Assembly (NCBI RefSeq): GCF_038592985.1
Contig: NZ_CP151951.1
Span: 4,517,001-4,581,000 of the forward strand
DNA length: 64,000 nt
Direction: 5' to 3'
From: Paenibacillus sp. FSL R10-2782
GTDB lineage: Bacteria > Bacillota > Bacilli > Paenibacillales > Paenibacillaceae
In this document: in pieces, positions 8,972 through 52,124 of the stretch
Layout: each line of letters begins with the position of its first letter
How positions within the stretch are numbered: position 1 is the first letter of the stretch
Program-made: the position numbers and the translations under genes
Notes under the pieces: generated by a model
The model's input: the letters and a program-made list of their open reading frames with translations, nothing else
Told to the model about the DNA's origin: nothing
The model's database searches: none

Positions 8972-8998
8972 TTTGCATCCTCCTTTCAAATGTGAAAT

Positions 8999-9286: not shown

Positions 9287-9307
9287 ACAAAAACCTCCTC
9301 GTGTATA

Positions 9308-9495: not shown

Positions 9496-9566
9496 TTTCG
9501 AAAAGCGATAGGAGCTAAGAACGTGCTAATTATATATTCTTAAAAAGAGTGGGCATTAGCCTCCAC

Positions 9567-9953: not shown

Positions 9954-10033
9954 CGTTAGCCCCCCCGTTTGTCTGAACTTATCTGCTAAGTCTACTAAAA
10001 AAAAAGTAGCTTGTCTATATCATCTATGTATCT

Positions 10034-10243: not shown

Positions 10244-10298
10244 TGATGCTCCCCCTTGTGATCTGACGGCAAATGCCTCTTTATCCTCTTAATGGGCA

Positions 10299-10340
10299 AA
10301 AAAAAGAACGCAAACCGGGATTCATCCACAGCTTGCGTGC
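10299..10340 (-). terminator. Terminator of dedA / thioredoxin / MBL operon
   Basis: On the minus strand ACGCAA and TTGCGT pair across an 18-base loop that can itself fold, followed by C and eight T. About 150 bp lie between the MBL gene stop and this site; I see nothing else in that stretch. Confidence 0.7.
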
Positions 10341-10486
10341 TTCGCGAGTTTAGTATGTAACTTCAATATGTATATGTTAACAAAAATAAAAACCTTTGTC
10401 TATACACTATTTATAATTTGTTGTCGAAATGGGGCAAAACCTGTCACAACCTCGATTATACCCCAGTTGAAAACATTCATCACTTT

Positions 10487-11116: not shown

Positions 11117-11119
11117 ATT

Positions 11120-11689: not shown

Positions 11690-11690
11690 G

Positions 11691-35973: not shown

Positions 35974-36231
35974 ATGAGCATACCATCCTTATCATTAGTA
36001 AAGTGCTAATCACAAAATTACCGACGGCAATAGTATAACACACAACGGATCGGATTCGAACCGTGTGTCAACCGAACAACCCTGAAACCTCCGTCAATAT
36101 TCTGAAAATAAAATAAAAAATGCTTCCGTCCCCACGATTGTCTCCTGACAAAAACGCGGGTCAGAACCATTTTTTCTTGTTTCCAAATTCGATGCCACCA
36201 GGAGACAGACGAGCTATTCAGCAGACAATAT

Positions 36232-37047
36232 CTACACTCCCTGTGCTGGTAAACGTATGGAAGAATCTGCGGAAGCTCCCACACCAATCGGAATAAGATA
36301 CATCCCCGCCTCAGCGTCATGTCTTACGGCTACTTCCACGCCATAGACTGCCTGAATCATATCGGATGTGACGACCTCGGCGGGCGGACCGTTCGTTATA
36401 ATGCGCCCTTCCTTCATGGCAATCATAACGTCGCTATAACGAATAGCCTGATTGATATCATGCAGCACCATTACGATCGTCAGACCGTGTTCCTGATTTA
36501 ACTGCCGGATGAGTTCCAAAATTTCAAGCTGGTAGTACATATCCAGATAGGTGGTCGGCTCATCTAAAAATAAAATCGGCGTCCGTTGTGCCAAGGCCAT
36601 TGCAATCCATACACGTTGCCGTTCTCCCCCCGATAACTGGTCCAGTGTACGTGTTCTGCGTTCCTCCAGATTCGTACAGGCTATCGCCCATTCGACCGCT
36701 TGCTCGTCCTCCTCACGTCTCGCTGTGAACATGTTCTTATGAGGAAGCCTTCCAAAGCTGACTAGCTTTTCTACGGTCAGGTCAGAGGGTGCCTCATTCT
36801 GCTGATGAACCACCGCCAGTTGACGGGCCAGTTCCTTGGGCTTGTATCGGGCAATCTCTTTACCGTCCAAAATCACCTGACCCAGGCGGGGAGTTGCATT
36901 GTTCGACATGACGCTAAGCAGCGTCGATTTACCACAGCCATTGGGACCAATGATGGTTGTAATTCGTCCCGGCTCAATGACAGCATTGATGGCGTGAAGA
37001 CGATCTGTTTTCCGGTCATATGAAAAGGTAATATCCTTAATGTCCAT
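36232..37047 (-). CDS. Heme/siderophore ABC transporter ATP-binding protein
   Basis: 271 residues of the FecE/FhuC class. Walker A is G-P-N-G-C-G-K-S-T at about 34, the signature is L-S-G-G-E-R-Q-R near 139, Walker B is I-L-F-L-D-E-P-T-T-Y-L-D near 157, and the switch histidine is in M-V-L-H-D-I-N-Q. The last 30 residues are a family-atypical tail. It overlaps the permease gene by 11 bp and is the last gene of the minus-strand heme operon. It should energise IsdEF uptake. Confidence 0.92.
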   Translation of the reverse strand: MDIKDITFSYDRKTDRLHAINAVIEPGRITTIIGPNGCGKSTLLSVMSNNATPRLGQVILDGKEIARYKPKELARQLAVVHQQNEAPSDLTVEKLVSFGRLPHKNMFTARREEDEQAVEWAIACTNLEERRTRTLDQLSGGERQRVWIAMALAQRTPILFLDEPTTYLDMYYQLEILELIRQLNQEHGLTIVMVLHDINQAIRYSDVMIAMKEGRIITNGPPAEVVTSDMIQAVYGVEVAVRHDAEAGMYLIPIGVGASADSSIRLPAQGV

Positions 37048-38020
37048 AGGTGCGATCCGCCTTTCTGATCAGGAATATCAGGAACGGCCCGCCAATGACG
37101 GCCATAATAATGGAAGCCGGAATTTCATTGGGAGCAAGCACCGTCCGGCCCAGCGTATCCGCGAGCAGTAGCAACAAACCGCCGCACAATGCGGAAAACG
37201 GAATCAGCCATTTGTGATCCGAACCAACCAAGTAGCGGGCACAATGCGGAACGAGCAGGCCAATAAATGCAATAACTCCAGCAATGGCTGTAGCCGTTGC
37301 TGCAAGCAGCACAGCAATAACAGAAATTAAAAGACGCGCACGCGTCACATTGAATCCCAGGTTTTTAGCTGTTTTATCTTGCAGCGACAAAAAATTGCAC
37401 CAGGAAAACACGAGCATGGCTAAAATCAGCCCAATCCCGCCATAGGTCACAATAACCTCGACATCGACCCATTTTTTCATGGACAAGGTTGAGGTTGTAA
37501 CCTGATTAATGCTGGTGACTGCGTAACTGCCCCGATAGTTAAACGATTGCCCGAGACCCGAAAAAATCGCATTCACAGCGACCCCGATCAAGATCAAACG
37601 GATCGGATGCAGGCCGGATTTCCATGAAAATCCGTAAACCATGAGACAGGCCAGCGCTCCACCGATAAAAGAAAAGAAGGGCATCCAGAAATAGAGTGCC
37701 GGAAAGATCGTAACCGCAATCAGCGAAACCAAAGCTGCCCCCGAAGAAATACCGATAACCCCGGCATCAGCCAGCGGGTTTTTCATCACGGCTTGCAGTA
37801 AAACACCCGCCACCGCAAGCGTGGCTCCCGCCATCACGGCTACGATAATTCTCGGTAGTCTCAGATCCTTGACCACATTCACCTGATCATCCGTCCCTGT
37901 CCACAATCCGGTCACCAATTGACTCAAATTCACCTTGAGACTGCCTGTCATCGCTGAATAGAGAATGACGCTGATGAGCAAGGCGATTACAACGATAAAG
38001 CTCCAACCTTTTTTCGACAT
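37037..38020 (-). CDS. isdF: Heme ABC transporter permease (FecCD family), IsdF-like
   Basis: 327 residues, about ten transmembrane helices. FecCD marks are seen: L-R-L-P-R-I-I-V-A-V-M-A-G-A near 49, L-L-Q-A-V-M-K-N-P-L-A-D-A-G near 73, and G-L-L-V-P-H-C-A-R near 245. It lies 14 bp after isdE and overlaps the ATPase gene. Named IsdF from its tie to isdE. Confidence 0.9.
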   Translation of the reverse strand: MSKKGWSFIVVIALLISVILYSAMTGSLKVNLSQLVTGLWTGTDDQVNVVKDLRLPRIIVAVMAGATLAVAGVLLQAVMKNPLADAGVIGISSGAALVSLIAVTIFPALYFWMPFFSFIGGALACLMVYGFSWKSGLHPIRLILIGVAVNAIFSGLGQSFNYRGSYAVTSINQVTTSTLSMKKWVDVEVIVTYGGIGLILAMLVFSWCNFLSLQDKTAKNLGFNVTRARLLISVIAVLLAATATAIAGVIAFIGLLVPHCARYLVGSDHKWLIPFSALCGGLLLLLADTLGRTVLAPNEIPASIIMAVIGGPFLIFLIRKADRTYGH

Positions 38021-38034
38021 GTCTTCAGCTTCCT

Positions 38035-38970
38035 CTAATTCGTAGGATACAACATTTTTACTAGCTCATCCAGCGCCGAGTTTACCGCCAAATTTCCTGT
38101 TGTTCCAAACAGCGGCTCCGGCAAATCATAGACGTGTCCGTTTTTCACAGCGTTAAAATGTTTCCAAATATCGTTAGTTTTGAACTCTTCGTCGAACATT
38201 TTGACCACTTCATCCGGCATCCCGTGTGCAGCACGCAAAATAATATCCGGATTGGACTGTTGCAAAGCTTCTGTATTGTGGGCAATAAATTCAACCTTCT
38301 CACCCTGGACTACGTTCGTCCCGCCTGCAATTTTAACCAGATCCCCAATGTAGGAATGCTCGGTAGCCACCAGATAGCTTCCCGGTACTCCCAGCAAGAT
38401 CAATACTTTAGGGGATTTCTTCCCTTTGATCTTTTGTTGAATCTCGGCTACTTTAGCGTCCAAAGCTCCATTAATCTCCTTTGCCTTTTCGGCTTTGCCG
38501 AACGTATCTCCCAGCTTTTGAATTTCTTTTTGCATGTTGGCTAGACTTTCAAAATTCAAAAATTCGGCATTGATCTTCAAATCTTTAAATTTAGGCTCCA
38601 GATCATATTTTAGTGTCGTAACCGACAGTACGTCTGTCGGCTTCAACGACATCACCTTTTCCATATCAGGACTCATCGGATTGCCCACATCAGGGACATC
38701 CTTATAACGATCAGGCAGCACTTTCGTGCTTGTCGGCTTGCCTGCCAAATCCAGACCCAGCGCATCCGTAATTTCCGTAATGGCTACCGTTGTAGCAACA
38801 ATACGTGATTGTGCTTTATCGCCGGACGTTGCCACTGATTTCGCACCTTCATGATCGTTCTGTTCGGCCGTCGCCCCTCCCGAGCATCCGGCGAGCAACA
38901 AAACCACCAGACCCATCAGCATATAAAAGCAGAACGATTTCCCTTGTACCAAAGCTGTATATCGTTTCAT
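38035..38970 (-). CDS. isdE: Heme-binding lipoprotein IsdE
   Basis: 311 residues. The lipobox L-L-A-G-C places the lipid cysteine at 29. From residue 57 it follows S. aureus IsdE closely: G-K-P-T-S near 77, R-Y-K-D-V-P, then G-N-P-M-S-P with the methionine that in IsdE is one axial heme ligand, G-V-P-G-S-Y-L-V-A-T near 194, I-G-D-L-V-K-I-A-G-G, and A-A-H-G-M-P-D with the histidine that is the other ligand. The match is good enough to predict heme binding directly. It passes heme from NEAT proteins to IsdF. It lies 158 bp after the nine-NEAT gene. Confidence 0.93.
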   Translation of the reverse strand: MKRYTALVQGKSFCFYMLMGLVVLLLAGCSGGATAEQNDHEGAKSVATSGDKAQSRIVATTVAITEITDALGLDLAGKPTSTKVLPDRYKDVPDVGNPMSPDMEKVMSLKPTDVLSVTTLKYDLEPKFKDLKINAEFLNFESLANMQKEIQKLGDTFGKAEKAKEINGALDAKVAEIQQKIKGKKSPKVLILLGVPGSYLVATEHSYIGDLVKIAGGTNVVQGEKVEFIAHNTEALQQSNPDIILRAAHGMPDEVVKMFDEEFKTNDIWKHFNAVKNGHVYDLPEPLFGTTGNLAVNSALDELVKMLYPTN

Positions 38971-39040
38971 GAAAGCTAAATCACCTCAATTCAAAATATA
39001 GAAGCAGCCTGAGCCTCAACTTTTCGGGTAATGAAATGCT

Positions 39041-39077
39041 GACAAGTCTTGATGCCAGGGCACCAAGACTTGCTTGC
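39041..39077 (-). other. Intercistronic hairpin between nine-NEAT gene and isdE
   Basis: CAAGTCTTG and CAAGACTTG, with more pairing inside (GTGCC / GGCAT), form a stable stem. No T run follows on the minus strand, so it looks more like a processing or stability element that separates the secreted and transporter parts of the operon. Confidence 0.5.
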
Positions 39078-39128
39078 ATACAAGCTATTCTGTTATTGGA
39101 GCAGGTTTGATGCTACTGCGACCTGATA

Positions 39129-42100
39129 TTATTTTGCTTTCAGACTCGCTTCATCAAACTGGAATTGAACTGTATACCAGTGATCATATGGCACGCCGCC
39201 AAGAACTAAACCAGGTACAATGACGTGTGTGTAGGCACTGATTTTCTGAGACAAGTCCCCTGCTTCAAATTGAACGACACGCGTATCGCCAGATGTCGAG
39301 ATGACCTCTACATCTTTCAGGCTACCATTCTGCTCCACTTGTAGAACAGGCATCCAGGAGCTATTTTTCAAAGTAACTTGAATATAACGCTTGTCTCCCT
39401 TTTCAATCAATGTAGCAGGCTTGTCGAGGTACCCATCCATGACGGAAGCTTCGCTTGTTTTATCTTTAAAAACGTTGTAATTGATCGTGTATTGCTTCTC
39501 GGAAGTGACTGTTTGAGCTGTTTGCTCCACTACAGGTTCCGTTTCAGCCACAGGTGTTGGCGCTTCTGCTGTCTGCTCAGTAGCTGGTGCGGTTGTAGCT
39601 GCATTGACTCCCTCACCTTTAAGCGATGCACGGTCAAATTGAATTTGTCCGCCGAACTTCTCATTCACAATAAATTTCTCAGGCAAGTATACCTGTGTGT
39701 ACACGCTCAGCTTTTGATCCAGATCAGGCACTTCAAAAGCGATGGTGCGCGTGTCACCTTTCGTGTCGGAACCAACAACGGTCGGATTGGCATAACGGCC
39801 TTCAAAGTCCGTTTGGAACAACTTCAAAGCCTGATTGTCCGTCACGGTGAGATGAGCCTGCACCTTACCATTCTTCACAATCAGCTTCGCCAGACTCTGT
39901 ACAAAAGGAGCCACAAGAGAGTCCTTGTCCGTTCCATTCGCCAGCACACGGAAGTTCGCTGTGTACTCTCCATCGGCTAAATTATTTTTCCCTTGTTCTA
40001 CTTTGTCTGTCTTTTTATCTTTGTAATATGTTACATCGCTAGTATCGAATTTGAATTCAAAATCATATACCTTCTCCACTCGATCCTCAGCCTTGAAGAC
40101 CATCGGAGCAGCACTCGCTACCTTCGGAGCTTCGTAAACAACCAATTGGCCTTCTACGTTGTTCTTAAAGTCGCTTACGCTAAAACGAACGTTCCTTGTA
40201 TTACTTGCTGCATCTTCCTGGGTCACTTCTGCGTCTTTGTAGCCTCCGCTTGCCGTATCCCAAATGCGCAATGCCTTCACTTCGTTACTGTTTTGCAGCT
40301 TCAGACCTACAAACCGTTTGTCGCCTTCCACGACCAATTGCGCTGGTTCATTGGCAATAAAGCGTTGAGCCGGAGAATTCTCTCCTGTTGTTCCATCCGC
40401 TAAAACAATACTGAATTTCAAAACATATTTACCATTAACGAGCTTGTCAAAATCCAATTTCACAATTGGATCTGCGGCTCCAGTAGAGGACGGTTCGACA
40501 TAGCTGCGAATGGTAGCAGGCTCGAATTGATACTGCACATCATATACGTGGTCATAAGGGATGCCACCCAGTTCCAGACCCGGTACAATGACATGCGTAT
40601 TTACTGTAACTTTATCCGATAAATCTGCGACTTCAAATTGGACGGTTCTTGTATCTGCCGAGGTCGATTGATCAATAACCTGAGCCTCTGCACCGTTTAC
40701 CTTGAACGTTTTAATCCAGCTGCTCTTGTCCATTTTGATCTGGATCAAATTTTTGCCGGATTGCTTCAACAGAGTGGCTGGCTTTTGCATATAGCCATCC
40801 ATTACAGATATTTCATTGCTTCCATTTTTGAGTACGGAGAAATCAATGCTATATTTGCCGTTCTCAGTCCCAGGAGTTGTACCGCCATCCGTTCCTTTCA
40901 CTGCAATGCTGCTACGATCAAATTGAAGACGAATCTTATGGTCCATCTCATAAACGGTTCCGTTATAGCTGGTACTTACATGAACTTGCGCATTCAGAAT
41001 AGCGTCCAAGTCTGCCACTTTGAACTTTACAACACGAGTGTCCGCTTTCTTGTCCACATTTACGACATCTGAATCCGTCAACGTTCCGTTTTGTTCCGTT
41101 TTAAACTCCGTCACCGTGGCGCTGTCTTTGATCGTAAAGGAAGCTTCATACTTACCCTTTGATACCGTCAGCGTTGCTGGAGACAACAAATATTGCGCCA
41201 TTGATGATTTTTGATCTTTCGTTGCATGCAATGCATCGAAGTTGATGGAGTATGTGCCGTCCGCCAAAGTCGATGGTGTACCTGGATTTGTTGGTGTCGA
41301 ATCTTTAAGTGCTACACTATTTCTATCAAATTTGAGACGGATCGTATGGTCCATTTCATAAGGGGTTCCGTTGTAGCTGGTACTAACATGAACCTGCGCA
41401 TTTAAAATGGCATCCACATCAGCCAATGGGAACTTCACCATGCGAGTATCGGATGCTTTATCCTCACTCACAATGTCCACGTCCGTTAATGTTCCGTTTT
41501 GTTCGGTTTTGAACTTTGTAATCGTTGCGCTATCCTTGATCTGGAAGGACACTTCATACTTACCTTTCGTCGCTGTCAGTGTTGCTGGCGACACCAAGTA
41601 CCGTGCCATCGAAGAGACTTGATCCTTGGTTGCGTGCAGCGCATCAAAGTTAATGGAATACGTACCATCTACCAAAGTCGAAGGTGTACCCGGATCAGGG
41701 GTAACATTGCCGTTAAATTGAATTTGAACATTGTACCAATGATCGTATGGTACTCCGCCCAATTCCAAACCAGGTACGATAACGTGAGTATAAGCATTTA
41801 CTTTGTTAGACAGACTTCTTATTTCAAACTCCACTATGCGTTGGTCACCCTCAGTGGATACCGTAGCCGCTTCTTCATATTTTCCATTCTGCTCTGTTTG
41901 GAAGGAAGGAATCCAACTGCTGTTTTTAATCGTCAGTTGAACATACCATTTGTTTCCTTTTTGGACCACTTTAGCTGGCTTTAGAGTATAGCCGTCCATA
42001 ACGGACATATCTTGCGACTTATCCTTTAAAACAGAGAAGTCAATACTTCCCAATTGCAGAGAAGAACCCGGATCAGGGGTAACACTGCCGTTAAACTGGA

Positions 42101-43121
42101 TTTGAACATTGTACCAATGATCGTATGGTACTCCGCCCAATTCCAACCCAGGCACGATAATGTGGGCATAAGCATTTACTTTGTTAGACAGATTGCCTAC
42201 TTCAAACTCGATTGTACGTTGGTCACCCTCAGTGGATACCGTAGTCGTTTCTTCATATTTTCCATTCTGTTCTGTTTGGAAAGATGGAATCCAACTGCTG
42301 TTTTTAATCGTCAGTTGAACATACCATTTGTTCGCTTTTTGAACCAGTTTAGCTGGTTTTACAACATAGCCGTCCATAACGGAAACATTTTGCGATTTAT
42401 CTGTCAAAATCGTGAAGTCGAGGCTTCCTGGTTGTAAAGGAACTTCGGGTTCTGGCGATGTTACAGGCGGAGTCGTCTCCTCTGCAACCTTTATTGTAGA
42501 TGGATCAAATTCAATCGAGTTTTCTCTTTTTATATTTTTGAAATTAAAATCCACATCAATTTTCTGAGTTAAATCATACACGTCAAATGTTACAGATCTT
42601 TGATTATACTTGTCTCCTGTTTGGATCAAATCTGAAACATGAGCAGAAATACCTTCTCCATTTTGTTTCAATTCAAAATCTGTTAATAATGGTTCTGTTG
42701 GATTATCAATATTCAAAGAAACATGATACGTAGCTTGTCCGACTGACGCATTATACTCTACTTTAAAAGTAGCTGGTTTCACAAAATAGAGAGCTTGTGG
42801 TGAATTGTTGCCTGTTTTTCTGTTCTTCACTGCATATTCAATTGAATATTTATTGGAGTCCTGAACGACGCTGGGGCTCTGTACCTCTGCAACTGAAACC
42901 ACACCTACCGATGGTGCCGTTTCGTTCTCTGTCAGGGTTGTTTCCGCCATACTTGGTTCTGTCGAATATACATCCTCACTCACAGAAGTAGCAGACGCAC
43001 CAGATTCAGTTGATGTGACAGTATCTTCGGCAGATACAACTGGTGCAGACGGGAACACAACCGAAAGCAGCATGGCAAAGGTCGCTAACATTATTAAGTA
43101 TTTTCTAAATTGCCTCTTCAA
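39129..43121 (-). CDS. Secreted heme-binding protein with nine NEAT domains
   Basis: 1330 residues, TTG start after GTAGGGGGA. Signal peptide 1-31, a Ser/Thr/Glu-rich spacer to 88, then NEAT domains at about 91-212, 232-345, 358-470, 485-606, 621-742, 754-872, 886-1033, 1049-1169 and 1208-1329. NEAT2, 3, 6 and 9 have both heme marks: S-V-M-D-G-Y in the lip helix and Y-D-H-(W/V)-Y in strand 8 (Y333/Y337, Y459/Y463, Y856/Y860, Y1312/Y1316). NEAT4 and 5 have S-M-x-x-Y and Y-E-M-D-H (Y588/H592, Y724/H728). NEAT1, 7 and 8 lack the ligand tyrosine. The chain ends three residues after NEAT9: no LPXTG, no SLH repeats, no membrane tail. NEAT2/3 and NEAT4/5 are recent tandem copies. It should be a large secreted or loosely held hemophore, feeding IsdE. 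Confidence 0.93.
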   Translation of the reverse strand: MKRQFRKYLIMLATFAMLLSVVFPSAPVVSAEDTVTSTESGASATSVSEDVYSTEPSMAETTLTENETAPSVGVVSVAEVQSPSVVQDSNKYSIEYAVKNRKTGNNSPQALYFVKPATFKVEYNASVGQATYHVSLNIDNPTEPLLTDFELKQNGEGISAHVSDLIQTGDKYNQRSVTFDVYDLTQKIDVDFNFKNIKRENSIEFDPSTIKVAEETTPPVTSPEPEVPLQPGSLDFTILTDKSQNVSVMDGYVVKPAKLVQKANKWYVQLTIKNSSWIPSFQTEQNGKYEETTTVSTEGDQRTIEFEVGNLSNKVNAYAHIIVPGLELGGVPYDHWYNVQIQFNGSVTPDPGSSLQLGSIDFSVLKDKSQDMSVMDGYTLKPAKVVQKGNKWYVQLTIKNSSWIPSFQTEQNGKYEEAATVSTEGDQRIVEFEIRSLSNKVNAYTHVIVPGLELGGVPYDHWYNVQIQFNGNVTPDPGTPSTLVDGTYSINFDALHATKDQVSSMARYLVSPATLTATKGKYEVSFQIKDSATITKFKTEQNGTLTDVDIVSEDKASDTRMVKFPLADVDAILNAQVHVSTSYNGTPYEMDHTIRLKFDRNSVALKDSTPTNPGTPSTLADGTYSINFDALHATKDQKSSMAQYLLSPATLTVSKGKYEASFTIKDSATVTEFKTEQNGTLTDSDVVNVDKKADTRVVKFKVADLDAILNAQVHVSTSYNGTVYEMDHKIRLQFDRSSIAVKGTDGGTTPGTENGKYSIDFSVLKNGSNEISVMDGYMQKPATLLKQSGKNLIQIKMDKSSWIKTFKVNGAEAQVIDQSTSADTRTVQFEVADLSDKVTVNTHVIVPGLELGGIPYDHVYDVQYQFEPATIRSYVEPSSTGAADPIVKLDFDKLVNGKYVLKFSIVLADGTTGENSPAQRFIANEPAQLVVEGDKRFVGLKLQNSNEVKALRIWDTASGGYKDAEVTQEDAASNTRNVRFSVSDFKNNVEGQLVVYEAPKVASAAPMVFKAEDRVEKVYDFEFKFDTSDVTYYKDKKTDKVEQGKNNLADGEYTANFRVLANGTDKDSLVAPFVQSLAKLIVKNGKVQAHLTVTDNQALKLFQTDFEGRYANPTVVGSDTKGDTRTIAFEVPDLDQKLSVYTQVYLPEKFIVNEKFGGQIQFDRASLKGEGVNAATTAPATEQTAEAPTPVAETEPVVEQTAQTVTSEKQYTINYNVFKDKTSEASVMDGYLDKPATLIEKGDKRYIQVTLKNSSWMPVLQVEQNGSLKDVEVISTSGDTRVVQFEAGDLSQKISAYTHVIVPGLVLGGVPYDHWYTVQFQFDEASLKAK
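39135..42851 (-). repeat. Nine tandem NEAT-coding units
   Basis: Units on DNA at about 42851-42486, 42428-42087, 42050-41712, 41669-41304, 41261-40896, 40862-40506, 40466-40023, 39977-39615 and 39500-39135. Units 2 and 3 repeat with a 378-bp period and units 4 and 5 with a 408-bp period, with long identical runs that could recombine. Confidence 0.85.
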
Positions 43122-43208
43122 GTGTATTAATCCCCCTACTTAAAATATACTCATTTGAAGCTCTCCCGAGCTTCAAATGAGTATTCAAATCAATACAATG
43201 TCTCTGTA

Positions 43209-43700
43209 CTAATTAATCGTATCCTCATCAAAACCAAATTGAACGATGTAATCGTGATCGTATGGCACACCGCCAGTATATTCTTTCGGCACGCTTACGT
43301 GAAGTTTAGCGTTCAATAGCGCGGACAAATCGCTCACCGGAAACTCAACCACTCTAGTATCACCGGATGTGCTGACTACAGTTGCATTCACATATTGACC
43401 ATTTTGTTGTGTTTTGAATTCAGTGACCCAAGCGCTTTTGGTAATCGTCACTCTAACCTTGTACTGACCATTAGCAGCAATCAAGGTAGCTGGCTTCGCC
43501 ACATAACCGCCTGTATCCATGTAGGAAGGTGAAGTTGTACCATCTTTGTACACTGTGTAATCAATGGTATACGTACCATTAGGCAAAGCAGCATTCGCTT
43601 TATTTGCAGAAAACGGAGCTAGTACAACAAATACCAAAGCAGCCATCAATACAGTAAGCATTACTTTTTTCAAATTCATACGGTTCATGATCATGTTCAT
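43209..43700 (-). CDS. Secreted single-NEAT hemophore
   Basis: 163 residues. Signal peptide 1-38 ending A-N-K-A-N-A-A; one NEAT domain from 40 to the end. The lip helix reads S-P-S-Y-M-D-T-G-G-Y and strand 8 Y-D-H-D-Y, so both heme tyrosines are present. No anchor follows (it ends F-D-E-D-T-I-N), so the mature 125-residue protein should be free, like IsdX1 of B. anthracis. AAAAGGAG precedes the ATG. It lies 87 bp upstream of the nine-NEAT gene and 32 bp after the next NEAT gene. Confidence 0.9.
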   Translation of the reverse strand: MNMIMNRMNLKKVMLTVLMAALVFVVLAPFSANKANAALPNGTYTIDYTVYKDGTTSPSYMDTGGYVAKPATLIAANGQYKVRVTITKSAWVTEFKTQQNGQYVNATVVSTSGDTRVVEFPVSDLSALLNAKLHVSVPKEYTGGVPYDHDYIVQFGFDEDTIN

Positions 43701-43732
43701 GTTCTCAGTCTCCTTTTACGTTTTATTGTGGA

Positions 43733-44200
43733 TTAGATTTCGTCGAATTGCAGTTGTACATCATACTTGCCTGTGTAACCAATGACTGGAATCGTGATTT
43801 CAGCATAAGCGTTAACTTTGGCATTCAGGTCAGCAACTTCGAATTCCACTACGCGAGTGTTGCTGGCAGTATCAGTGCTTACCACAGTCGCATCTTGCAG
43901 TACACCGTTTTGTTCCACTTTGAACGTTGTGATCAGATTGCTGCTTTTCACAGTCAAACGAACAACATTTTTGCCATTAGCTACAATAACCTGAGCTGGT
44001 TTCGTTAAATAGCTATCCAGACGGGAGGTTTCATTCGTTTGATCTTTCAGAACGGTATAGTCTACTGCATACGTGCCGTCGGCTGCTGCCGCTTTAGCAG
44101 AGAACGGAGCAATAACTGCAAAAACAAGTGCTGTCATGATCAATGCAACGAGTACCTTTTTGAAAGAAAACTGCTCAAAGCGATTCATTACCATATTCAT
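43733..44200 (-). CDS. Secreted single-NEAT protein
   Basis: 155 residues from the ATG at 44200; GGAGGAG lies upstream, and an in-frame GTG at 44212 is too near it. Signal peptide to about residue 37 (S-A-K-A-A-A), then one NEAT domain to the end. The lip helix is S-R-L-D-S-Y and strand 8 has Y-T-G-K-Y, keeping the two tyrosines but losing the D-H found in its neighbours. The loop before strand 8 is short (P-V-I-G). Probably a heme carrier with different exchange behaviour; that is inference. Confidence 0.87.
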   Translation of the reverse strand: MNMVMNRFEQFSFKKVLVALIMTALVFAVIAPFSAKAAAADGTYAVDYTVLKDQTNETSRLDSYLTKPAQVIVANGKNVVRLTVKSSNLITTFKVEQNGVLQDATVVSTDTASNTRVVEFEVADLNAKVNAYAEITIPVIGYTGKYDVQLQFDEI

Positions 44201-44271
44201 ATCTACACACACTCCTCCATTTTTTATGCTTGAATTTATGTTGATTTCATGAACAATAAGATTGCTTGAAT

Positions 44272-44787
44272 TTACTTCTTAGAAGATTTGGTTGATTTCG
44301 TTGACTGGACGGCCGCTACTTTTTTGACACTTTTGGAATCAAAAGCGAAGCGAATGGTATAGTCATGATCGTAGTTATACGCAGGGACGGTAACATGAAT
44401 TTTAGAAATCAGCGGGCTGTTCACAGTTGTAATTGGAAATTGTACAGTACGGGTATCGGTTTTGGTGTCCTTGTGAATGACCTTTGTGTCGATAATTTTG
44501 CCTTTGTAATCCACTTTAAACCCGGTTGTCCATTCGCTGTGATTCAGCTTAATTTGCATGGTCATTTGGCCTTTTTTCACATACAGCTTGGCTGGCTTCT
44601 CAAAATAATCATTAGCCATGGATACAGAATCGTTTTCGGCCTTGAGAATATTGTATTTAAGCGTGTATGTACCATCCGCCAATTTTGTAGAAGCCATAGC
44701 GGCTACCACAGATGATGAAGTTGGCCAAAAGCTCAGCACACTGACCAGCAGAAACACAGCAATCATTGCAGAATAACCCTTCTTCAT
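44272..44787 (-). CDS. Secreted single-NEAT protein with basic C-terminal tail
   Basis: 171 residues. Signal peptide 1-30; NEAT domain about 36-155 with S-M-A-N-D-Y in the lip helix and Y-D-H-D-Y in strand 8. The last 18 residues (V-K-K-V-A-A-V-Q then S-T-K repeats, ending K-K) are basic and flexible and could hold the protein to teichoic acids or the wall surface. GGGAGGGA lies 11 bp before the ATG. It is the first gene of the minus-strand heme operon, directly behind a Fur-controlled promoter. Confidence 0.88.
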   Translation of the reverse strand: MKKGYSAMIAVFLLVSVLSFWPTSSSVVAAMASTKLADGTYTLKYNILKAENDSVSMANDYFEKPAKLYVKKGQMTMQIKLNHSEWTTGFKVDYKGKIIDTKVIHKDTKTDTRTVQFPITTVNSPLISKIHVTVPAYNYDHDYTIRFAFDSKSVKKVAAVQSTKSTKSSKK

Positions 44788-44812
44788 TTTGACAGCAGTC
44801 CCTCCCCACGAG

Positions 44813-44841
44813 AATATAAGTTAATTGATTATCATTCTCAA
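44813..44841 (-). promoter_or_regulatory. Promoter of the minus-strand NEAT-isd operon
   Basis: On the minus strand TTGAGA - 17 bp - TATATT. The Fur box covers the -35 box and the spacer, so bound Fur would block RNA polymerase. Confidence 0.75.
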
Positions 44842-44843
44842 TT
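44825..44843. promoter_or_regulatory. Fur box of NEAT-isd operon
   Basis: TTGATTATCATTCTCAATT matches the Fur-box core (TGATAAT-N-ATTATCA type), with the typical ATTATCATT in the middle. Confidence 0.8.
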
Positions 44844-45091
44844 GAATTTTTAAAAAAATAGCTCTTCCTGAGCTTTTCCTCCCCACCTTCCCATCCAGAA
44901 ATTCGCAAAACCAAGTGAACCCATCACCAATATATCTTACACTTTTCGAAAATGTCAATATGTATTTTCGTGTACATAACCCCTTGATATATGCTATTTT
45001 TTAAGAAAAATTTAGGATACCTTCCTCTATACCATGAATCCCATCTACTCCATTTCAGTAAAAAAATTATTTAAAATTTTGGTTTTTTCAA

Positions 45092-45125
45092 TTGACAATT
45101 CCTATTGATATTCATTATCATTCTC
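45092..45125 (+). promoter_or_regulatory. Promoter with Fur box for the plus-strand heme transporter operon
   Basis: TTGACA at 45092-45097, 18-bp spacer, TATCAT at 45116-45121. A Fur-box-like sequence TGATATTCATTATCATTCTC at 45106-45125 overlaps the -10 box. Confidence 0.7.
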
Positions 45126-45136
45126 TTATGCATAAA

Positions 45137-45157
45137 TGAAAATGATTATCATTATTA
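45137..45157. promoter_or_regulatory. Second, near-consensus Fur box
   Basis: GAAAATGATTATCATTAT is close to the classical 19-bp Fur box GATAATGATTATCATTATC. It lies just downstream of the promoter and 30 bp before the lipoprotein start. Confidence 0.88.
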
Positions 45158-45186
45158 TTTAACTTAAAAATCGCAGGAGGAATGAC

Positions 45187-46167
45187 ATGAAATCTTATGT
45201 GTTGTGGTCATCCGCAGCGCTTTTATTGGCAGTTACCGGATGTAGTAATGGTACTCCGGCCGCAGATCACAAACCAACCACTGCATCTGTAACTACCACT
45301 TCCGGCACAACAAGCGATGCGACAATTCAGGTTACTGATTTTTCAAAACGGACGTTGGCGTTCCAAGATGTCCCTCAACATATCATTGCGCTCAGCAATG
45401 GCGATCTGGATATCATATATGCTTTGGGCGGGACAGCCGTTGGCAGACCCAACTCGAATGGACCTTCCGTCGTACCTGCTGCTGAAAACGTTCAACAAGT
45501 AGGCTCTACTCATGAGGTCGATCTGGAGAAAATTACGATGCTCAAACCGGATGTCGTATTAGGCAATTACCCTATGAATGAGAAAGATATTCCAGCTATT
45601 GAAGGTGTCGGTTCGCAGTTGCTGCTGACAGGGGCCAATTCAGTCCAAGATATTCAGTCGCAAATTACACTCTTCGGGCAATTATTGCACAAGCAGGCTC
45701 CGGCCGTGAAGCTGAATCAGCAAATTGACCAACAGGTAGCCACATTACAAAAGGAAACAGCCTCTACCTCCAAACCTAAAGTGCTGCTTGTTTACGGAGC
45801 CCCGGCCACATATATGGCGGCATTGCCGAATTCATTAGGGGGAAATATTCTGGAAATGGCTGGTGGTGCTAATATTGCCGCTGATTTTCCGGGGCTGCAA
45901 AATTTCCCGCAATACGCGCAGCTAAATACGGAACGCATCGTACAGGCCGATCCTGACTACATCCTGATTATGACCCACGGCAATACGGAAGAGGTCAAAG
46001 CCGCATTTATCAAGGAAATGCAGGAAAATGCAGCTTGGAGCGGAATCAAGGCGGTCAAAAACAATCAGGTCGAGGTATTACCCTCCGATCTGTTCGGAAC
46101 CAATCCGGGCACACGGGTTACTGAGGCACTGGATTTGATGCACCAAAAGCTGTATCCGGCGAAATAA
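45187..46167 (+). CDS. Iron/heme ABC transporter substrate-binding lipoprotein
   Basis: 326 residues. The lipobox L-A-V-T-G-C places the lipid cysteine at 19, followed by a Thr/Ser linker to 45. The PF01497-type binding fold follows: R-T-L-A-F-Q-D-V-P-Q-H-I-I-A-L near 56, G-G-T-A-V-G-R-P near 80, and T-H-G-N-T-E-E near 266. The histidine in I-M-T-H-G-N corresponds to the heme-ligand histidine of IsdE, and V-Y-G-A-P-A-T-Y-M-A-A matches its G-V-P-G-S-Y-L-V-A. Its place with isdG and NEAT genes makes heme the likely cargo, but it is not a close IsdE copy. CAGGAGG precedes the ATG. Confidence 0.87.
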   Translation: MKSYVLWSSAALLLAVTGCSNGTPAADHKPTTASVTTTSGTTSDATIQVTDFSKRTLAFQDVPQHIIALSNGDLDIIYALGGTAVGRPNSNGPSVVPAAENVQQVGSTHEVDLEKITMLKPDVVLGNYPMNEKDIPAIEGVGSQLLLTGANSVQDIQSQITLFGQLLHKQAPAVKLNQQIDQQVATLQKETASTSKPKVLLVYGAPATYMAALPNSLGGNILEMAGGANIAADFPGLQNFPQYAQLNTERIVQADPDYILIMTHGNTEEVKAAFIKEMQENAAWSGIKAVKNNQVEVLPSDLFGTNPGTRVTEALDLMHQKLYPAK

Positions 46168-46170
46168 GCG

Positions 46171-47169
46171 ATGAACAAACTACAACGCGCCAGAAGACGC
46201 ACCATCGCCTGGATTACGCTTCCGATCCTGCTGATAGCTGTATCCGTGTACGGCCTGGCTTACGGATCGGTGTCGATTCCACTACGAGAAATCAATCAGG
46301 TTTTGCTACATCATGATGACTCCACCTATCGCACGATCCTAATGGATCTCCGGCTGCCCAGAGTATTAGTGGGTCTGCTCGTAGGAGCCTGTCTGGCAGC
46401 TGCGGGAGCACTTCTTCAAGGAGTCATGAAAAATCCACTGGCTGATCCTGGCATTATTGGTGTATCGGCTGGTGGTGGACTCGCTGCGGTCATCACGATG
46501 GTCATGCTTCCACAGCTTAGCTACCTTCTTCCGGTAACTGCCTTTTCGGGAGCCTTCCTGACTGCTGTTGCAATTTACCTGCTGGCTTGGGATCGGGGAG
46601 CCTCTCCCGTCAAAATCGTATTAGCGGGTGTTGCGATCAACGCACTGCTGGGCGCGGTCATGAACGGCGTGATGGTCATGTACAGCGACCGCGTGCAAGC
46701 GGTTCTCCCTTGGCTATCCGGCGGATTGAACGGACGAAGCTGGCATCATCTGGAGTTCATGGCGCCTTACGCCATCATTGGCTTAATCGCCTCCCTGTTT
46801 GCGATCAAGCCTGCCAATTTGCTGCTGCTGGGCGACGATTCAGCGCAACTGCTCGGACAGCGTGTAGAGCTTCAGCGGCTGCTCATTATCTTGCTCTCTG
46901 CCCTGCTCGCCGGTACGGCAGTCAGTGTAGCGGGGCTGATCGGTTTTGTAGGACTGGTCGTTCCTCATGTTATCCGCCTGCTGATCGGGGAGGATTATCG
47001 CTTCCTCCTTCCCCTTTCCATTCTGGGCGGCGGGACACTGGTCGTACTGGCGGATACGGTGGCACGGTCCTGGTTTGATCCGATTGAACTGCCTGTAGGT
47101 ATTTTGCTGGCCGTCATCGGAGCGCCGTTCTTCTTAATCCTGCTCAAGAAACGGGGGAATTTCGGATGA
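46171..47169 (+). CDS. Heme/iron ABC transporter permease (FecCD family)
   Basis: 332 residues, nine or ten transmembrane helices, with L-R-L-P-R-V-L-V-G-L-L-V-G-A near 57, L-L-Q-G-V-M-K-N-P-L-A-D-P-G near 80 and G-L-V-V-P-H-V-I-R near 258. It begins 3 bp after the lipoprotein stop and overlaps the ATPase start by 4 bp. Second heme-type permease of the locus, paralogous to the one at 37037. Confidence 0.92.
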   Translation: MNKLQRARRRTIAWITLPILLIAVSVYGLAYGSVSIPLREINQVLLHHDDSTYRTILMDLRLPRVLVGLLVGACLAAAGALLQGVMKNPLADPGIIGVSAGGGLAAVITMVMLPQLSYLLPVTAFSGAFLTAVAIYLLAWDRGASPVKIVLAGVAINALLGAVMNGVMVMYSDRVQAVLPWLSGGLNGRSWHHLEFMAPYAIIGLIASLFAIKPANLLLLGDDSAQLLGQRVELQRLLIILLSALLAGTAVSVAGLIGFVGLVVPHVIRLLIGEDYRFLLPLSILGGGTLVVLADTVARSWFDPIELPVGILLAVIGAPFFLILLKKRGNFG

Positions 47170-47957
47170 CAGCCATTCAGGGTGAGCATATCTCCTTGCA
47201 GCGCGGGTATTTCAAGCTGGACGATGTAAACATTACCTTACCCACCGGACAGCTCACCGCAATTGTCGGGCCCAACGGTTCGGGCAAATCCACGCTTTTG
47301 CGGATTATTACACGGCTGCTCAGGCAGGATCAGGGACAGGTTTCTGTACTGGGCAAGCCCGTGCAGGAGTACAGGCGGCGTGATTTTGCCCAAACGATTA
47401 CAATGCTGCCGCAAATGAAGGATATGCTGCCGTTATTAACGGTTCGTGAGCTGGTCGCTTACGGAAGATCCCCTCATGCCAAAGGCTTGAGGACACGGCA
47501 TACCGGACAGGATCATCATATTGTGGACCATGTCATGGAAATCACAGGCATGAAGCCCTATGCGGATCGGATGTTCCATACTCTATCGGGAGGTGAACAA
47601 CAAAAAGCGCGAATTGCAATGGCTTTGGCCCAACAAACGGGCATTCTTTTGCTCGATGAACCTACCACTTTTCTGGATATCGCCCATCAATTTGAGGTTA
47701 TGGATATGCTGAGGCGTATTAATCACGAGTCCGGCTTAACGATTGTTATGGTACTGCATGATTTGCAGCAAGCTGCGGCCTATTGTCATCATATGATTGC
47801 GCTTAAAAGGGGACGAATCGCCATGGCTGGCGAACCCCGTCAGATTTTGACGTCTGCTTTTCTTCGCGACATTTATGAAATGAACGCTACTATCAAATTT
47901 GAGGATGGCTATCCGGTCATTATACCGACCATACCACATCATTCAGGAGGAATTTAA
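47166..47957 (+). CDS. Heme/iron ABC transporter ATP-binding protein
   Basis: 263 residues. Walker [10 protein letters not shown] near 36, signature L-S-G-G-E-Q-Q-K near 140, Walker [13 protein letters not shown] near 159, and H-loop V-L-H-D-L-Q. Same class as the ATPase at 36232 but only distantly similar outside motifs. ATGA overlap with the permease; the isdG-like gene starts 1 bp after its stop. Confidence 0.92.
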
Positions 47958-47958
47958 T

Positions 47959-48315
47959 ATGATTATTGTTACAAACACATCTAAAATCACCCCGGGCAAT
48001 GCCCACCTGCTCATCGAACGCTTTAACAAAGAAGGTAAAGTGGAAAAAATGGAAGGCTTCCTCGGTCTGGAGGTACTGCTCACTGAAAACACAAAAGATT
48101 ATGAGGAAGTAACGATTAGCACACGCTGGAAGGAAAAAGAAAACTTCCAAGGCTGGACCAAAAGCGAGGCCTTCCGTGAATCACACAGCCACCGCCAAAT
48201 TCCGGACTATATTTTAGAAAATAAAATTACATTTTATGAAGTCAAAATCGTGCGGCATCCCATTACCAACACCGATTCCGATTCCTTTCTGGTGAACGAT
48301 ACCGAAGCGGTCTAA
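47959..48315 (+). CDS. isdG: IsdG-family heme-degrading monooxygenase
   Basis: 118 residues. It opens heme inside the cell and releases iron. The catalytic Asn-Trp-His set of IsdG (N7, W67, H77 in S. aureus) is present at N6, W66 and H76, in [16 protein letters not shown] and E-S-H-S-H. The ATG at 47959 has CAGGAGG upstream. It is the last gene of the plus-strand operon, as IsdG ends the S. aureus isd operon. Confidence 0.93.
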
Positions 48316-48373
48316 ACCTGTAACACAGCGACAGACTTGTCTGCCCGCACCTTGTCACTCATTCAAACCAACC

Positions 48374-48419
48374 ATAAAAAGCGACTCCGCAGACCATTGT
48401 CCGCAGAGTCGCTTTTTAT
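48374..48419. terminator. Bidirectional terminator
   Basis: AAAAAGCGACTC and GAGTCGCTTTTT form the stem, with partial pairing inside. It separates the isdG-like gene from the convergent MBL-hydrolase gene. Confidence 0.9.
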
Positions 48420-48428
48420 ATGGAATTC

Positions 48429-49439
48429 TCAGATTGCAGTTGAACAGCGGCTTTGAATTTTCAGCGTCTCACCGTGTCCCAGTATATGAATGCGCTCCTT
48501 GGCGATGCCCAAGCGTTCACGCTCCGCTTCGAGACGATCCAGCGCCTCTCTCGGCGTATCATCCGCCAGCTTAAAGGCTCCGTAATGCATCGGGATCATC
48601 TGATCCGCGCCGCAATCCACGAACCCCTGCAACGCCTCCTCCGGTGTCACATGCTGCGAGGTCATGAACCATTCCGGCTCATACGCGCCAATCGGCATAA
48701 AGGTCAGGTCAATGTCAAAGCGCTCGCCAATCTCCTTGAAGCCGCGGAAATACCCGGTATCTCCCACAAAGTACAACGTCGGTGCAGCTGCTGTATCTGA
48801 AATAGAATTAGTATGCGATTCGGTGACGGACGTGGCAGAGCCGATCACCTGCTGCTCACTTTGCAGCACATATCCACCCCAATGCGAAGTATTCGTATCA
48901 AACGGCGTACGCCGCGTCCAATGCTGAGCCGGGACAAACGTGAACCGCACCCCGCCTACCGTAACATGCTCCCACCATTTCAGCTCATGGCAGTTACGGA
49001 AGCCTTTGCGGACCATTTTCGACTTTAACCCCGAAGGTACGAGCATCAGCGTATCTGCACGATACAATTTGCGCAACGAATCCATATGCAAATGATCATA
49101 ATGCGAATGAGACAGCAGAATGATGTCCAACGGCGGTACATCCTGAATGCGGATGCCGGGCGGAGCCAGTCTTTTGTCCAAAGCCATACGCTCAGCCCAC
49201 ACCGGATCCGTAACGATGTTCAGTCCGAGATATTGAATGAAAAAGGTTGAATGCCCTACCCAGGTCGCCGTCGTCGTGTCCCGGTTACTGTGCAAAAATT
49301 CCAGCTCCGGGGGATGGTTCGGAACAACGAACGTATAATCCTTCGTTTTGCTGCGGCGCTCCTGCCGCCATTGTCTGAATTGCTTGAGAGTTTTATCCGT
49401 ATTGACATGATCCATGTTGTTAAAACGAACTTTGGGCAT
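48429..49439 (-). CDS. MBL-fold hydrolase, NAPE-PLD/UlaG-like
   Basis: 336 residues from the ATG at 49439, which has GGGGAGGAG 7 bp upstream. The metal motif is S-H-S-H-Y-D-H-L near 120, with further histidines in P-A-Q-H-W-T near 184 and M-H-Y-G-A-F-K near 284, and V-G-D-T-G-Y-F near 233. This is the NAPE-hydrolysing phospholipase D-like branch of the family. In bacteria such proteins are probable phospholipid or phosphodiester hydrolases; the substrate is unknown. Confidence 0.85.
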   Translation of the reverse strand: MPKVRFNNMDHVNTDKTLKQFRQWRQERRSKTKDYTFVVPNHPPELEFLHSNRDTTTATWVGHSTFFIQYLGLNIVTDPVWAERMALDKRLAPPGIRIQDVPPLDIILLSHSHYDHLHMDSLRKLYRADTLMLVPSGLKSKMVRKGFRNCHELKWWEHVTVGGVRFTFVPAQHWTRRTPFDTNTSHWGGYVLQSEQQVIGSATSVTESHTNSISDTAAAPTLYFVGDTGYFRGFKEIGERFDIDLTFMPIGAYEPEWFMTSQHVTPEEALQGFVDCGADQMIPMHYGAFKLADDTPREALDRLEAERERLGIAKERIHILGHGETLKIQSRCSTAI

Positions 49440-49749: not shown

Positions 49750-50781
49750 TCACCCTTTCTTCCCCGCTTGTCCTCGCACATAATCCGCATCGAACAGGAA
49801 CAGTCTCAAGATCAGGATCAGTGACGGGATGAGCACCAGCAGCCCCGCACTAAACGCCGTAATCAATGCATACGCCATGGCGGAGTTCGTAAAGCTGTGA
49901 TGCACATTAATGTAGGGATACAAAACATACGGCAAATGCGAGCGACCATAACCATACCAAGCAAATGCAAATTGCAGCATGACCAGAATAAAGGAGGTTC
50001 CGAGATAACGCCGCCGCCATACCAGATAGACAGCTCCGACAAAGCAGACGAAGGAGGCGACAAACATCCATGCCATATTCAGCATATTGGCGAAATGGTC
50101 TGGATTTTGTTTGTTAATCTGAAAAAATGCGAGCAGACTCGCCACAATCGTAGGACCGCTCCAGAATAGCGCGTACCCGCGCACGATTTCAAAAGCAACC
50201 TTGTCTCCTGCCCTTTTGGCATAATAGGACAGAAACATCGCCGAGATATACAGCACACTCACCAGCGCCAGGAAAATAACCGCCCACGTATAGGAGTTGC
50301 TTAATAACTCACCCCATCGCAGATGAACACCTGTGCTGTTCTCCACAATAATACCGCCTTCCGAAATGGCGAGAACCGTCGACAGCGCCGCCGGAATGAG
50401 CAGCCCTGTCGCGCCGTACAATGCCATGTAGACGATATTATTTGTACCGGAATGCCCATACGTGTTGTACGCATAGTACACCCCGCGGATCGCGAGAAGC
50501 ACAATGGCAATACTGCCGGGAACGAGCAACGCTGTGCCATAGTAATAAGCCGCATCCGGGAAGAAACCATTCAGTCCCACCACGAAAAAAATGAGAAATA
50601 CGTTCGTTACCTCCCACACCGGCGATAAATACCGCTGTATAATGTTGTGGATTTTGTTCTGGTGACCTGTCAGCACACTGTAAAAGCTGAAAAAGCCTGC
50701 GCCAAAATCAATAGATGCCACAATCAAATAACCGAACAGGAAGGTCCACAAAATGGCGATACCGACAATTTCATAGCTCAC
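49750..50781 (-). CDS. cydB: Cytochrome bd ubiquinol oxidase subunit II
   Basis: 343 residues, about nine transmembrane helices. It starts I-L-W-T-F-L-F-G-Y-L-I-V-A-S-I-D-F-G-A-G and has S-P-V-W-E-V-T-N-V-F near 53, typical of CydB (the W-E-x-N motif). Overlaps the cydA stop by 4 bp. Confidence 0.95.
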   Translation of the reverse strand: MSYEIVGIAILWTFLFGYLIVASIDFGAGFFSFYSVLTGHQNKIHNIIQRYLSPVWEVTNVFLIFFVVGLNGFFPDAAYYYGTALLVPGSIAIVLLAIRGVYYAYNTYGHSGTNNIVYMALYGATGLLIPAALSTVLAISEGGIIVENSTGVHLRWGELLSNSYTWAVIFLALVSVLYISAMFLSYYAKRAGDKVAFEIVRGYALFWSGPTIVASLLAFFQINKQNPDHFANMLNMAWMFVASFVCFVGAVYLVWRRRYLGTSFILVMLQFAFAWYGYGRSHLPYVLYPYINVHHSFTNSAMAYALITAFSAGLLVLIPSLILILRLFLFDADYVRGQAGKKG

Positions 50782-52124
50782 TTCCCTTCAACCCCTTCCA
50801 GACCCAGCTGCTTTAGTTCTTCCACTGCATCTTTATTTCGGAACAGCTTGCTGAGAACCTTAATGGCTGAGAAGCACAACACGAGATACAAAATGATAAA
50901 CATCACGAGCATCCATCCCACACTGGTGGAGGTGGTCGCTGCTTCGGACACCTTCATATAGCCGCGCAAAATCCACGGCTGCCTGCCAACCTCCGCGAAC
51001 ATCCAGCCCAGCTCAATGGCTACCATAGCCATCGGCCCCACCAGAATGAGCGCCAGCAGCAGCCATTTGGGGTATGGTTTACGACCTGGCAGACGCTTGC
51101 GAATCAGATACAACAGTGGAATGACGAGAATCAGCACCCCGGTGGTGATTTTGAGATCGAACATATAGTGGATAGACAACGGCGGTCGCTGATCCACAGG
51201 ATAATCATTCAAACCCTTAACTTCTGTACTGGGCAGATTCCCGGCCAAAACACTAAGCGCATAAGGCACTTTCAAGGCGTACTTGATGTCTCCGTTCTTG
51301 TCCATATAACCGCCATATACGAAAGGAGCGTGCGTCATTGTATCAAAATGCCATTCGGCAGCAGCCAGCTTTTCCGGCTGATATTTGGCCAGAAATTTAC
51401 CGGAAGCGTCTCCGATCATCACGGTGCTGATGGCAAATACAATGGTGCAGGTGGCGGTCAGCTTCAGCGCTTTTTTGAAATACGGGTGGTTGCGCCCCCG
51501 CAGCATACTATAGGCAGCTAATCCCATCAGCAGCCCAGCACTCAACGTATACGAGGAAGCCAGCACATGAGAAACTTTGGTCGGCGTGGCCGGATTCAGC
51601 ATGGCCTGGATGGGATGAATATCTGTCATGACTCCATTTTTAAGTGTAAAGCCTTGAGGCTGGTTCATGAACGAGTTCACAGTTGTAATAAAAACCGCTG
51701 ATGCAGATGAGGCAATCGCTACCGGAATAAGCAGCATCAGGTGAAAATATTTGCTTTTAAACCGATCCCAGGTGTACAAGTAGATACCCAGAAAAATGGC
51801 TTCAATGAAAAAAGCAAACGTCTCCAAAAACAGGGGCAGCGCAATCGCTTGTCCAGCCACCCTCATAAAGGTAGGCCAAAGCAAGCTGAGTTGCAATCCA
51901 ATGGAAGTACCTGTGACGACACCTACGGCAACGGTGATGACAAACCCCCGCGCCCACCGTCGGGCCAACAGCGTATAGTGCGGATCACCAGTTCGCAGCC
52001 CGCGCCATTCCGCGAGCGCAATCATCAAAGGTACGCCAACGCCAATGGATGCAAATACAATATGAACAAACAGGGTAATTCCGGTCAACATCCGGCTTAG
52101 TAATACGGGGTCCAGTGAAGACAA
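50778..52124 (-). CDS. cydA: Cytochrome bd ubiquinol oxidase subunit I
   Basis: 448 residues, the short-Q-loop form. It reduces oxygen with quinol using hemes b558, b595 and d; it supports growth at low oxygen. Seen: the N-terminal heme-ligand histidine in F-V-H-I-V-F-A near 21, F-L-E-T-F-A-F-F-I-E-A-I-F near 98-110 with the two conserved glutamates of the proton path, and V-G-R-Q-P-W near 386. cydA-cydB-cydS are tightly packed. Confidence 0.95.
   Translation of the reverse strand: MSSLDPVLLSRMLTGITLFVHIVFASIGVGVPLMIALAEWRGLRTGDPHYTLLARRWARGFVITVAVGVVTGTSIGLQLSLLWPTFMRVAGQAIALPLFLETFAFFIEAIFLGIYLYTWDRFKSKYFHLMLLIPVAIASSASAVFITTVNSFMNQPQGFTLKNGVMTDIHPIQAMLNPATPTKVSHVLASSYTLSAGLLMGLAAYSMLRGRNHPYFKKALKLTATCTIVFAISTVMIGDASGKFLAKYQPEKLAAAEWHFDTMTHAPFVYGGYMDKNGDIKYALKVPYALSVLAGNLPSTEVKGLNDYPVDQRPPLSIHYMFDLKITTGVLILVIPLLYLIRKRLPGRKPYPKWLLLALILVGPMAMVAIELGWMFAEVGRQPWILRGYMKVSEAATTSTSVGWMLVMFIILYLVLCFSAIKVLSKLFRNKDAVEELKQLGLEGVEGK

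Follow-up and report, generated by a model that had tools for sequence, protein, structure and literature searches.

A secreted nine-NEAT protein of Paenibacillus as a putative multi-heme hemophore in an Isd-type locus without anchored NEAT proteins

The 64,000-nucleotide stretch of Paenibacillus sp. FSL R10-2782 analysed here (contig NZ_CP151951.1, positions 4,517,001 to 4,581,000; hereafter the window) carries a long gene that encodes nine consecutive NEAT domains within an Isd-type locus. The product of this gene is probably a secreted, IsdX2-like hemophore for several hemes, which would form the scavenging arm of a Fur-controlled Isd locus that has no anchored NEAT protein. Hemophores and NEAT domains of this kind are already known; what is new is an anchor-free Isd locus with an array of variable length and a front that seems to have been swapped between relatives.

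The long gene (39129-43121, reverse strand) is a single open frame of 1330 amino acids with a TTG start. A sequence-only reading of the window had counted nine NEAT domains in it, and had placed at fewer than seven profile matches the limit below which that count would fall. The PF05031 profile returned nine matches (N1 to N9 from the N-terminus), each of them above the 32.8-bit cut-off in a scan of the genome, with N1 the lowest (36.5 bits) and N9 the highest (132.8 bits). The genome (one contig, 5.6 Mb) has 12 NEAT domains above the cut-off, all at this locus, namely these nine and those of three single-NEAT genes. P. terrae PIC167, at 96%, is the closest relative that bears a name. Two genes joined by a frameshift were considered and rejected, as the frame is open throughout; the split frame seen in L010/L021 (related loci are labelled L throughout) is due to runs of N in that draft sequence. 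A signal peptide was read by eye at the N-terminus, and the chain stops after N9 with no LPXTG or other sorting motif, no SLH match in Pfam and no hydrophobic tail, in agreement with the earlier description of a secreted protein without a surface anchor.

The closest matches of solved structure are IsdX2 NEAT5 (4h8p), Listeria Hbp2 N2 (4myp) and IsdX1 (3sik). Linkers of 11-41 residues separate the domains, two pairs of which are particularly alike: N2 and N3 share 82% of their amino acids and 87% of their nucleotides, and N4 and N5 share 81% and 75%, respectively. An alignment-based model of N1 gave no Foldseek match at E 0.001 or better, and the NEAT domains stood among many immunoglobulin-like folds; a single-sequence model of this domain was discarded (predicted local distance difference test score of 38).

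Following the text of a survey of NEAT proteins (PMC4143258), we took two motifs as signs of heme binding: SxxxxY, which lies in the helix, and YxxxY, which lies on the last strand. The full pair of motifs is present in four of the nine domains (N2, N3, N6 and N9), N4 and N5 combine SxxxxY with YEMDH, a YxxxH form, and N1, N7 and N8 do not have the pair of ligand tyrosines. It is likely, judging from these motifs, that four to six domains bind heme; the six that had been proposed are an upper bound, as four have the full motif and two only YxxxH. A hemoglobin-receptor role for N1, N7 or N8 was also considered and set aside, since the aromatic motif of staphylococcal receptors was not seen in them by eye.

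The surroundings of the gene are those of a heme-uptake system. Downstream lie genes for IsdE, a permease and an ATPase, and upstream those for two single-NEAT proteins (S1 and S2) and an IsdC-like protein, while a second ATP-binding cassette (ABC) transporter of the heme/siderophore type and a heme oxygenase (45187-48315) diverge from the NEAT operon. Model scores exceed the cut-offs for IsdE (TIGR03659, 423.7 against 298.65), heme oxygenase (NF009839, 180 against 115) and IsdC (TIGR03656, 179.5 against 155.85, a match which covers only profile positions 7-159 of 219). For an IsdC-like NEAT domain of P. polymyxa, the text of PMC4143258 reports that heme binding has been shown. Four of the eight Fur-box-like matches found in the window, scanned with a consensus and up to three mismatches, fall within 332 bases of the promoter region shared by both operons, which suggests that the locus may be under Fur control.

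We infer heme binding, the order of transfer and release into the medium from the families to which these proteins belong. Outside the cell, heme would be collected by N2, N3, N6 and N9, and perhaps by N4 and N5, and would then pass to the single-NEAT carriers and to the IsdC-like protein, which is basic. IsdE would receive it next, the permease and ATPase would import it, and the linked heme oxygenase would open it inside the cell. N1, N7 and N8, which have no heme ligand, may act as spacers or docking domains.

None of the NEAT proteins of the window locus is anchored, including the IsdC-like protein, the lysine-rich tail of which has no sorting signal. The same holds for the 18 anchor-free relatives: in the 71 NEAT open reading frames of their loci, the last 60 residues contain no sorting motif, and no 18-mer within them exceeds a Kyte-Doolittle value of 1.61 (the four NEAT proteins of the window reach 1.38). 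Eleven tail-bearing controls scored 1.71-2.97, a range that leaves a small margin for L040 and L041. In three loci of the same genus (L024, L027 and L036), the long protein and its IsdC-like partner each carry NPxT and a membrane tail at the C-terminus, and a class B sortase gene after that of the ATPase ends the operon (TIGR03064, 273-278 against a cut-off of 153.75). In L043, L044, L045, L046 and L048 the long protein bears three SLH stretches in Pfam, and L047 was judged by its likeness to L046; in L043 (5942-10423) and L044 (5509-9093) the SLH triplet lies inside the chain, before the last NEAT domain, which is an unusual place for an anchor. A membrane tail is present on the IsdC-like protein in all eight outgroup loci that have a separate gene for it. 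No sortase was found at the locus in any of the eight anchor-free genomes examined. The window genome encodes three sortases, all away from the locus, of which the class-B-like one scores 148.2, below the TIGR03064 cut-off, and it retains SLH proteins (35 SLH matches).

Several findings weigh against an IsdX2-like hemophore under Fur control in a lineage that gave up anchoring. According to the text of PMC4143258, the removal of heme from hemoglobin by IsdX2 domains requires an amide residue in front of the helix tyrosine. In the long protein this residue is glycine in N2, N3, N6 and N9, arginine in N4 and glutamine in N5, and the amide is thus found in one of the six candidate domains, which itself has no second tyrosine; furthermore, the YxxxH of N5 is the form of IsdX2 NEAT2, a domain that does not bind heme. 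Hemoglobin stripping is not predicted for most domains, and since the amide is missing from them the protein may take up heme that is free or bound to other proteins. The score of the long protein against the IsdX2 model NF058656 (619.6 bits) is below the cut-off of 1400. The window total of eight Fur-box-like matches compares with 4.09 expected in 64 kb and is reached in four of 100 shuffles; hence, it is the clustering of the sites that speaks for Fur. When up to two mismatches are allowed, one or more sites occur in each of the 26 related promoter regions examined, which do not include those of L022 and L025; this count has no shuffle control. Finally, a sortase at the locus is also absent from all five SLH-type genomes, and the sortase may therefore be a gain in the three congeners rather than a loss here; with gain equally possible, sortase loss as a demonstrated event was dropped.

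It is conceivable, if unlikely, that the protein instead remains in the wall without an anchor, as a long heme bridge that is held by weak contacts and passes heme from domain to domain to IsdE. Nine chained domains with linkers of the observed length would be long enough in principle, and the IsdC-like partner, the mature form of which is basic (isoelectric point 9.7, net charge +11), could sit on the anionic wall. The long protein itself, however, is acidic (isoelectric point 4.93, net charge -46; the cleavage sites of both proteins were set by eye) and has no wall-binding module in Pfam, and the relatives that do anchor use NPxT or SLH, neither of which is present.

As to the history of the locus, in a tree of five transporter proteins from 27 rows (the window and 26 loci, with L022 and L025 left out) a branch with a bootstrap of 100 separates the 18 anchor-free rows from the others. 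Given the chosen root, the absence of the membrane tail and of SLH is best read as a loss in this lineage. The tree groups the loci of the polymyxa group with those of the genus labelled g17 and not with the sortase-type congeners, and so the locus may have been transferred between genera. No NEAT match was found in 56 of 75 genomes of the genus.

Of the remaining genomes of the genus, 19 are NEAT-positive (17 above the cut-off), as are 82 of 394 in the family (80), 24 of 398 in the class (23) and 13 of 398 in the phylum (9), sets which overlap. For the 28 related loci that were fetched, domains were counted with a profile of our own, derived from the 12 NEAT domains of the window. Among 18 complete anchor-free long genes, the window included and L021 (runs of N) and L022 (broken) left out, two have seven NEAT domains, one has eight, nine have nine, four have ten and two have 11. 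Pfam at E 0.001 gave identical totals in ten of 12 genomes of the genus and a total lower by one in G013 and G062; with the own profile, N1 reaches only 18-36 bits in several g17 rows. The first place and the last four places of the array are constant, and the middle holds two to six domains, which in the rows of the genus are of two types, alternating or doubled.

Nine domains had been thought rare, and this does not hold: 15 of the 18 orthologues have nine or more, the longest 11, and the text of PMC4143258 already describes two clostridial proteins with seven. That many nine-NEAT proteins might be known proved true in part, as they are common in two lineages of the Paenibacillaceae, while none appears in the titles and abstracts found in the open-access literature, a search outside which Table S1 of PMC4143258 (NEAT domains per protein) falls. 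That survey was the sole paper on Paenibacillus NEAT proteins in the open-access literature searched; its text gives 20 NEAT domains for P. polymyxa. Outside the two lineages, no open reading frame with nine NEAT domains above the cut-off was among the matches listed, which is no proof, since the large scans score only 10-11 candidates per genome and one of the lists gives just its best rows. In another genome of the phylum set (G1108:C1, about 1491306-1499627), an open reading frame of 4407 amino acids has seven NEAT domains above the cut-off. The locus in L022 (P. brasilensis, 4500-11700) is a decayed copy, with isdE in two frames and the long gene in pieces; the single-NEAT genes, the second binding protein and the second permease were not found in the stretch examined.

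The Isd system of Staphylococcus aureus and Bacillus anthracis comprises IsdC, IsdE, a permease, SrtB and IsdG. The window locus resembles it in its IsdC and IsdE matches, permease, ATPase, heme oxygenase and Fur-box-like sites, but has neither a NEAT sorting signal nor a class B sortase, and has a second ABC transporter linked to it. The nearest single protein is Bacillus IsdX2 (NF058656), likewise an anchorless secreted NEAT chain in an Isd locus. IsdX2-type proteins, however, have five or six NEAT domains (PMC4143258, in its text) against nine here and 7-11 in the lineage, three of the present domains are without ligand, and in the window locus the IsdC-like partner is unanchored as well. 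The clostridial proteins share the many NEAT domains per chain (up to seven), but most carry LPXTG and, as far as the text of that survey describes them, none has YxxxY, whereas the window protein is unanchored with YxxxY in four domains. The SLH- or NPxT-type proteins (L024, L027, L036 and L043-L048) occupy the same position with the same neighbours and have 3-8 NEAT domains by the own profile; in contrast to the window protein, they are anchored by SLH or by NPxT and a membrane tail.

The front of the protein has a history of its own. The window was compared with L033-L035 in 180-base tiles, which are 88-99% identical over 36300-40980, including the 3' half of the gene, and 92-99% identical over 43860-47460. 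Between these, identity drops to 0-77% in the 12 tiles of 41160-43140, and the two inner S1 tiles are at 73-85%. L021 and L025 remain highly similar to the window across the leader and N1 (L021 except at runs of N), and L025, which has a shorter array, drops at N5. In 12 rows and L021, N1 falls into three classes that are 89-99% alike within and 21-38% between: the window with L021 and L025, L035 with L023, and the remaining eight rows. The terrae complex (the window, L021, L025, L033, L034 and L035) is rejected as a clade by the N1 tree (approximately unbiased test, p-AU 0.000289) but not by a tree of the last four domains (p-AU 0.43). Conversely, the latter rejects the pairing of L035 with L023 (p-AU 1e-38), which N1 supports at 99/96. 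The terrae grouping was named after the N1 identities had been seen, and a long-branch warning applies to the tree of N1. In L023 a class II N1 stands next to middle domains that are closest to those of class III rows, which indicates that N1 and the array can recombine apart.

The leader and N1 thus seem to form a recombining cassette, through which long-diverged alleles are exchanged between related bacteria. The sample comprised one genome per species. We hypothesise that N1 may serve as a docking or evasion domain. More tentatively, the secreted array might be a modular public scavenger in which the leader and N1 are a specificity cassette with several long-diverged alleles swapped between strains. 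N1 would choose the hemoprotein, surface or partner for docking or would aid escape from phages, bacteriocins or heme thieves, the fixed rear (N6-N9) would deliver heme to the cell's own IsdC and IsdE, and the middle array would set heme capacity; this is possible, but we rate it well below the hemophore itself.

That array length and N1 variation merely reflect neutral slippage and drift, without function, appears distinctly improbable. Similar tandem domains such as N2/N3 and N4/N5 do invite unequal recombination, and each species is represented by one genome. However, N1 classes that are 21-38% alike, between flanks of 88-99% nucleotide identity, together with the tree rejections, argue for an exchange of long-diverged alleles and not for drift at one place, which does not in itself demonstrate selection. 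Less probable still is that the protein binds other tetrapyrroles, such as chlorophyll breakdown products (according to the text of PMC4143258, chlorophyll had been suggested as a ligand, but attempts to show that it is bound did not succeed), or is mainly a sink against heme toxicity: the life of the P. polymyxa group in soil and on roots and the large possible heme capacity would suit this, but the linked IsdE, ABC transporters and heme oxygenase, together with the Fur-box-like sites, speak for the uptake of iron from heme.

A hairpin precedes the long gene. Dinucleotide shuffles of six folded rows gave z-scores of -7.65 (window), -5.50, -4.93, -2.73, -4.60 and -3.12. In an ungapped search, 18 of the 19 anchor-free rows have the hairpin in front of the same ribosome-binding site, and the 19th (L031) has it with a bulge. 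Two-sided changes occur at eight of the 17 pair positions in 17 rows, which are related, so the events are not independent; pairs were counted from the 3' arm because MAFFT had misplaced the loops in alignment A1. The number of pairs exceeds that of simple shuffles in the window (18 against a maximum of 16) but not in all relatives (14 against 13-16 in g17 rows); the case for the hairpin lies in its place, its covariation and the dinucleotide shuffles. In nine outgroup loci the best stem is a different one, with 7-16 pairs, and that of L045 also lies just before its ribosome-binding site. A known RNA family was sought and set aside, as Rfam gave no match at the gathering score in 36000-48500. 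Possible roles of the hairpin are to reduce expression of the long gene compared with that of the small carriers, or to shield the mRNA upstream of it.

Table 1. Coordinates of the long gene, its domains and the neighbouring features in the window.
Feature	Position	Strand
Long gene: secreted protein with nine NEAT domains and a signal peptide (1330 aa, TTG start)	39129..43121	-
Signal peptide with Thr/Glu-rich leader; belongs to the seemingly swapped cassette	42867..43121	-
N1: divergent NEAT without ligand tyrosines; one of three allele classes	42498..42866	-
N2: NEAT, SVMDGY and YDHWY	42090..42425	-
N3: NEAT, SVMDGY and YDHWY	41712..42047	-
N4: NEAT, SSMARY and YEMDH	41325..41678	-
N5: NEAT, SSMAQY and YEMDH; cassette border about here	40917..41270	-
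N6: NEAT, SVMDGY and YDHVY	40521..40868	-
N7: NEAT, long insert before last strand, without YxxxY	40041..40445	-
N8: NEAT without ligand tyrosines	39633..39986	-
N9: NEAT, SVMDGY and YDHWY; final domain before stop	39150..39506	-
17-pair hairpin between S1 and long gene, just before ribosome-binding site; covaries in relatives	43147..43184	-
S1: secreted single-NEAT protein, YDHDY	43209..43700	-
S2: secreted single-NEAT protein, YTGKY	43733..44212	-
IsdC-like protein with one NEAT; no membrane tail, C-terminus rich in Lys	44272..44787	-
Four Fur-box-like matches, two overlapping, in promoter region shared by both divergent operons	44826..45157	.
IsdE, heme-binding protein of ABC transporter	38035..38970	-
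FecCD-type permease	37037..38020	-
ABC ATPase	36232..37047	-
Second substrate-binding protein, IsdE-like but under cut-off	45187..46167	+
Second FecCD permease	46171..47169	+
Second ABC ATPase	47166..47957	+
Heme oxygenase, IsdG/HmoB kind (start set at profile-match start)	47959..48315	+

The relatives seem to differ in their small carriers, as no S2-like gene was found in L023 and no S1-like gene in L042. An open reading frame of 100 amino acids (36018-36320, reverse strand) overlaps the end of the ATPase gene and has no Pfam or NCBIfam match. Near the heme locus, 49750-52124 encodes subunits I and II of a cytochrome bd oxidase, which are heme enzymes.

NEAT-based heme uptake is understood mainly from animal pathogens, in which most of the carriers are fixed to the wall. 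The soil- and root-associated lineage described here seems to run the same heme relay with no anchored NEAT carrier at all. Its arrays of 7-11 domains form a natural series with which to ask whether domain number sets heme capacity, and the same lineage could show whether transfer needs wall anchoring and what the ligand-free NEAT domains recognise.

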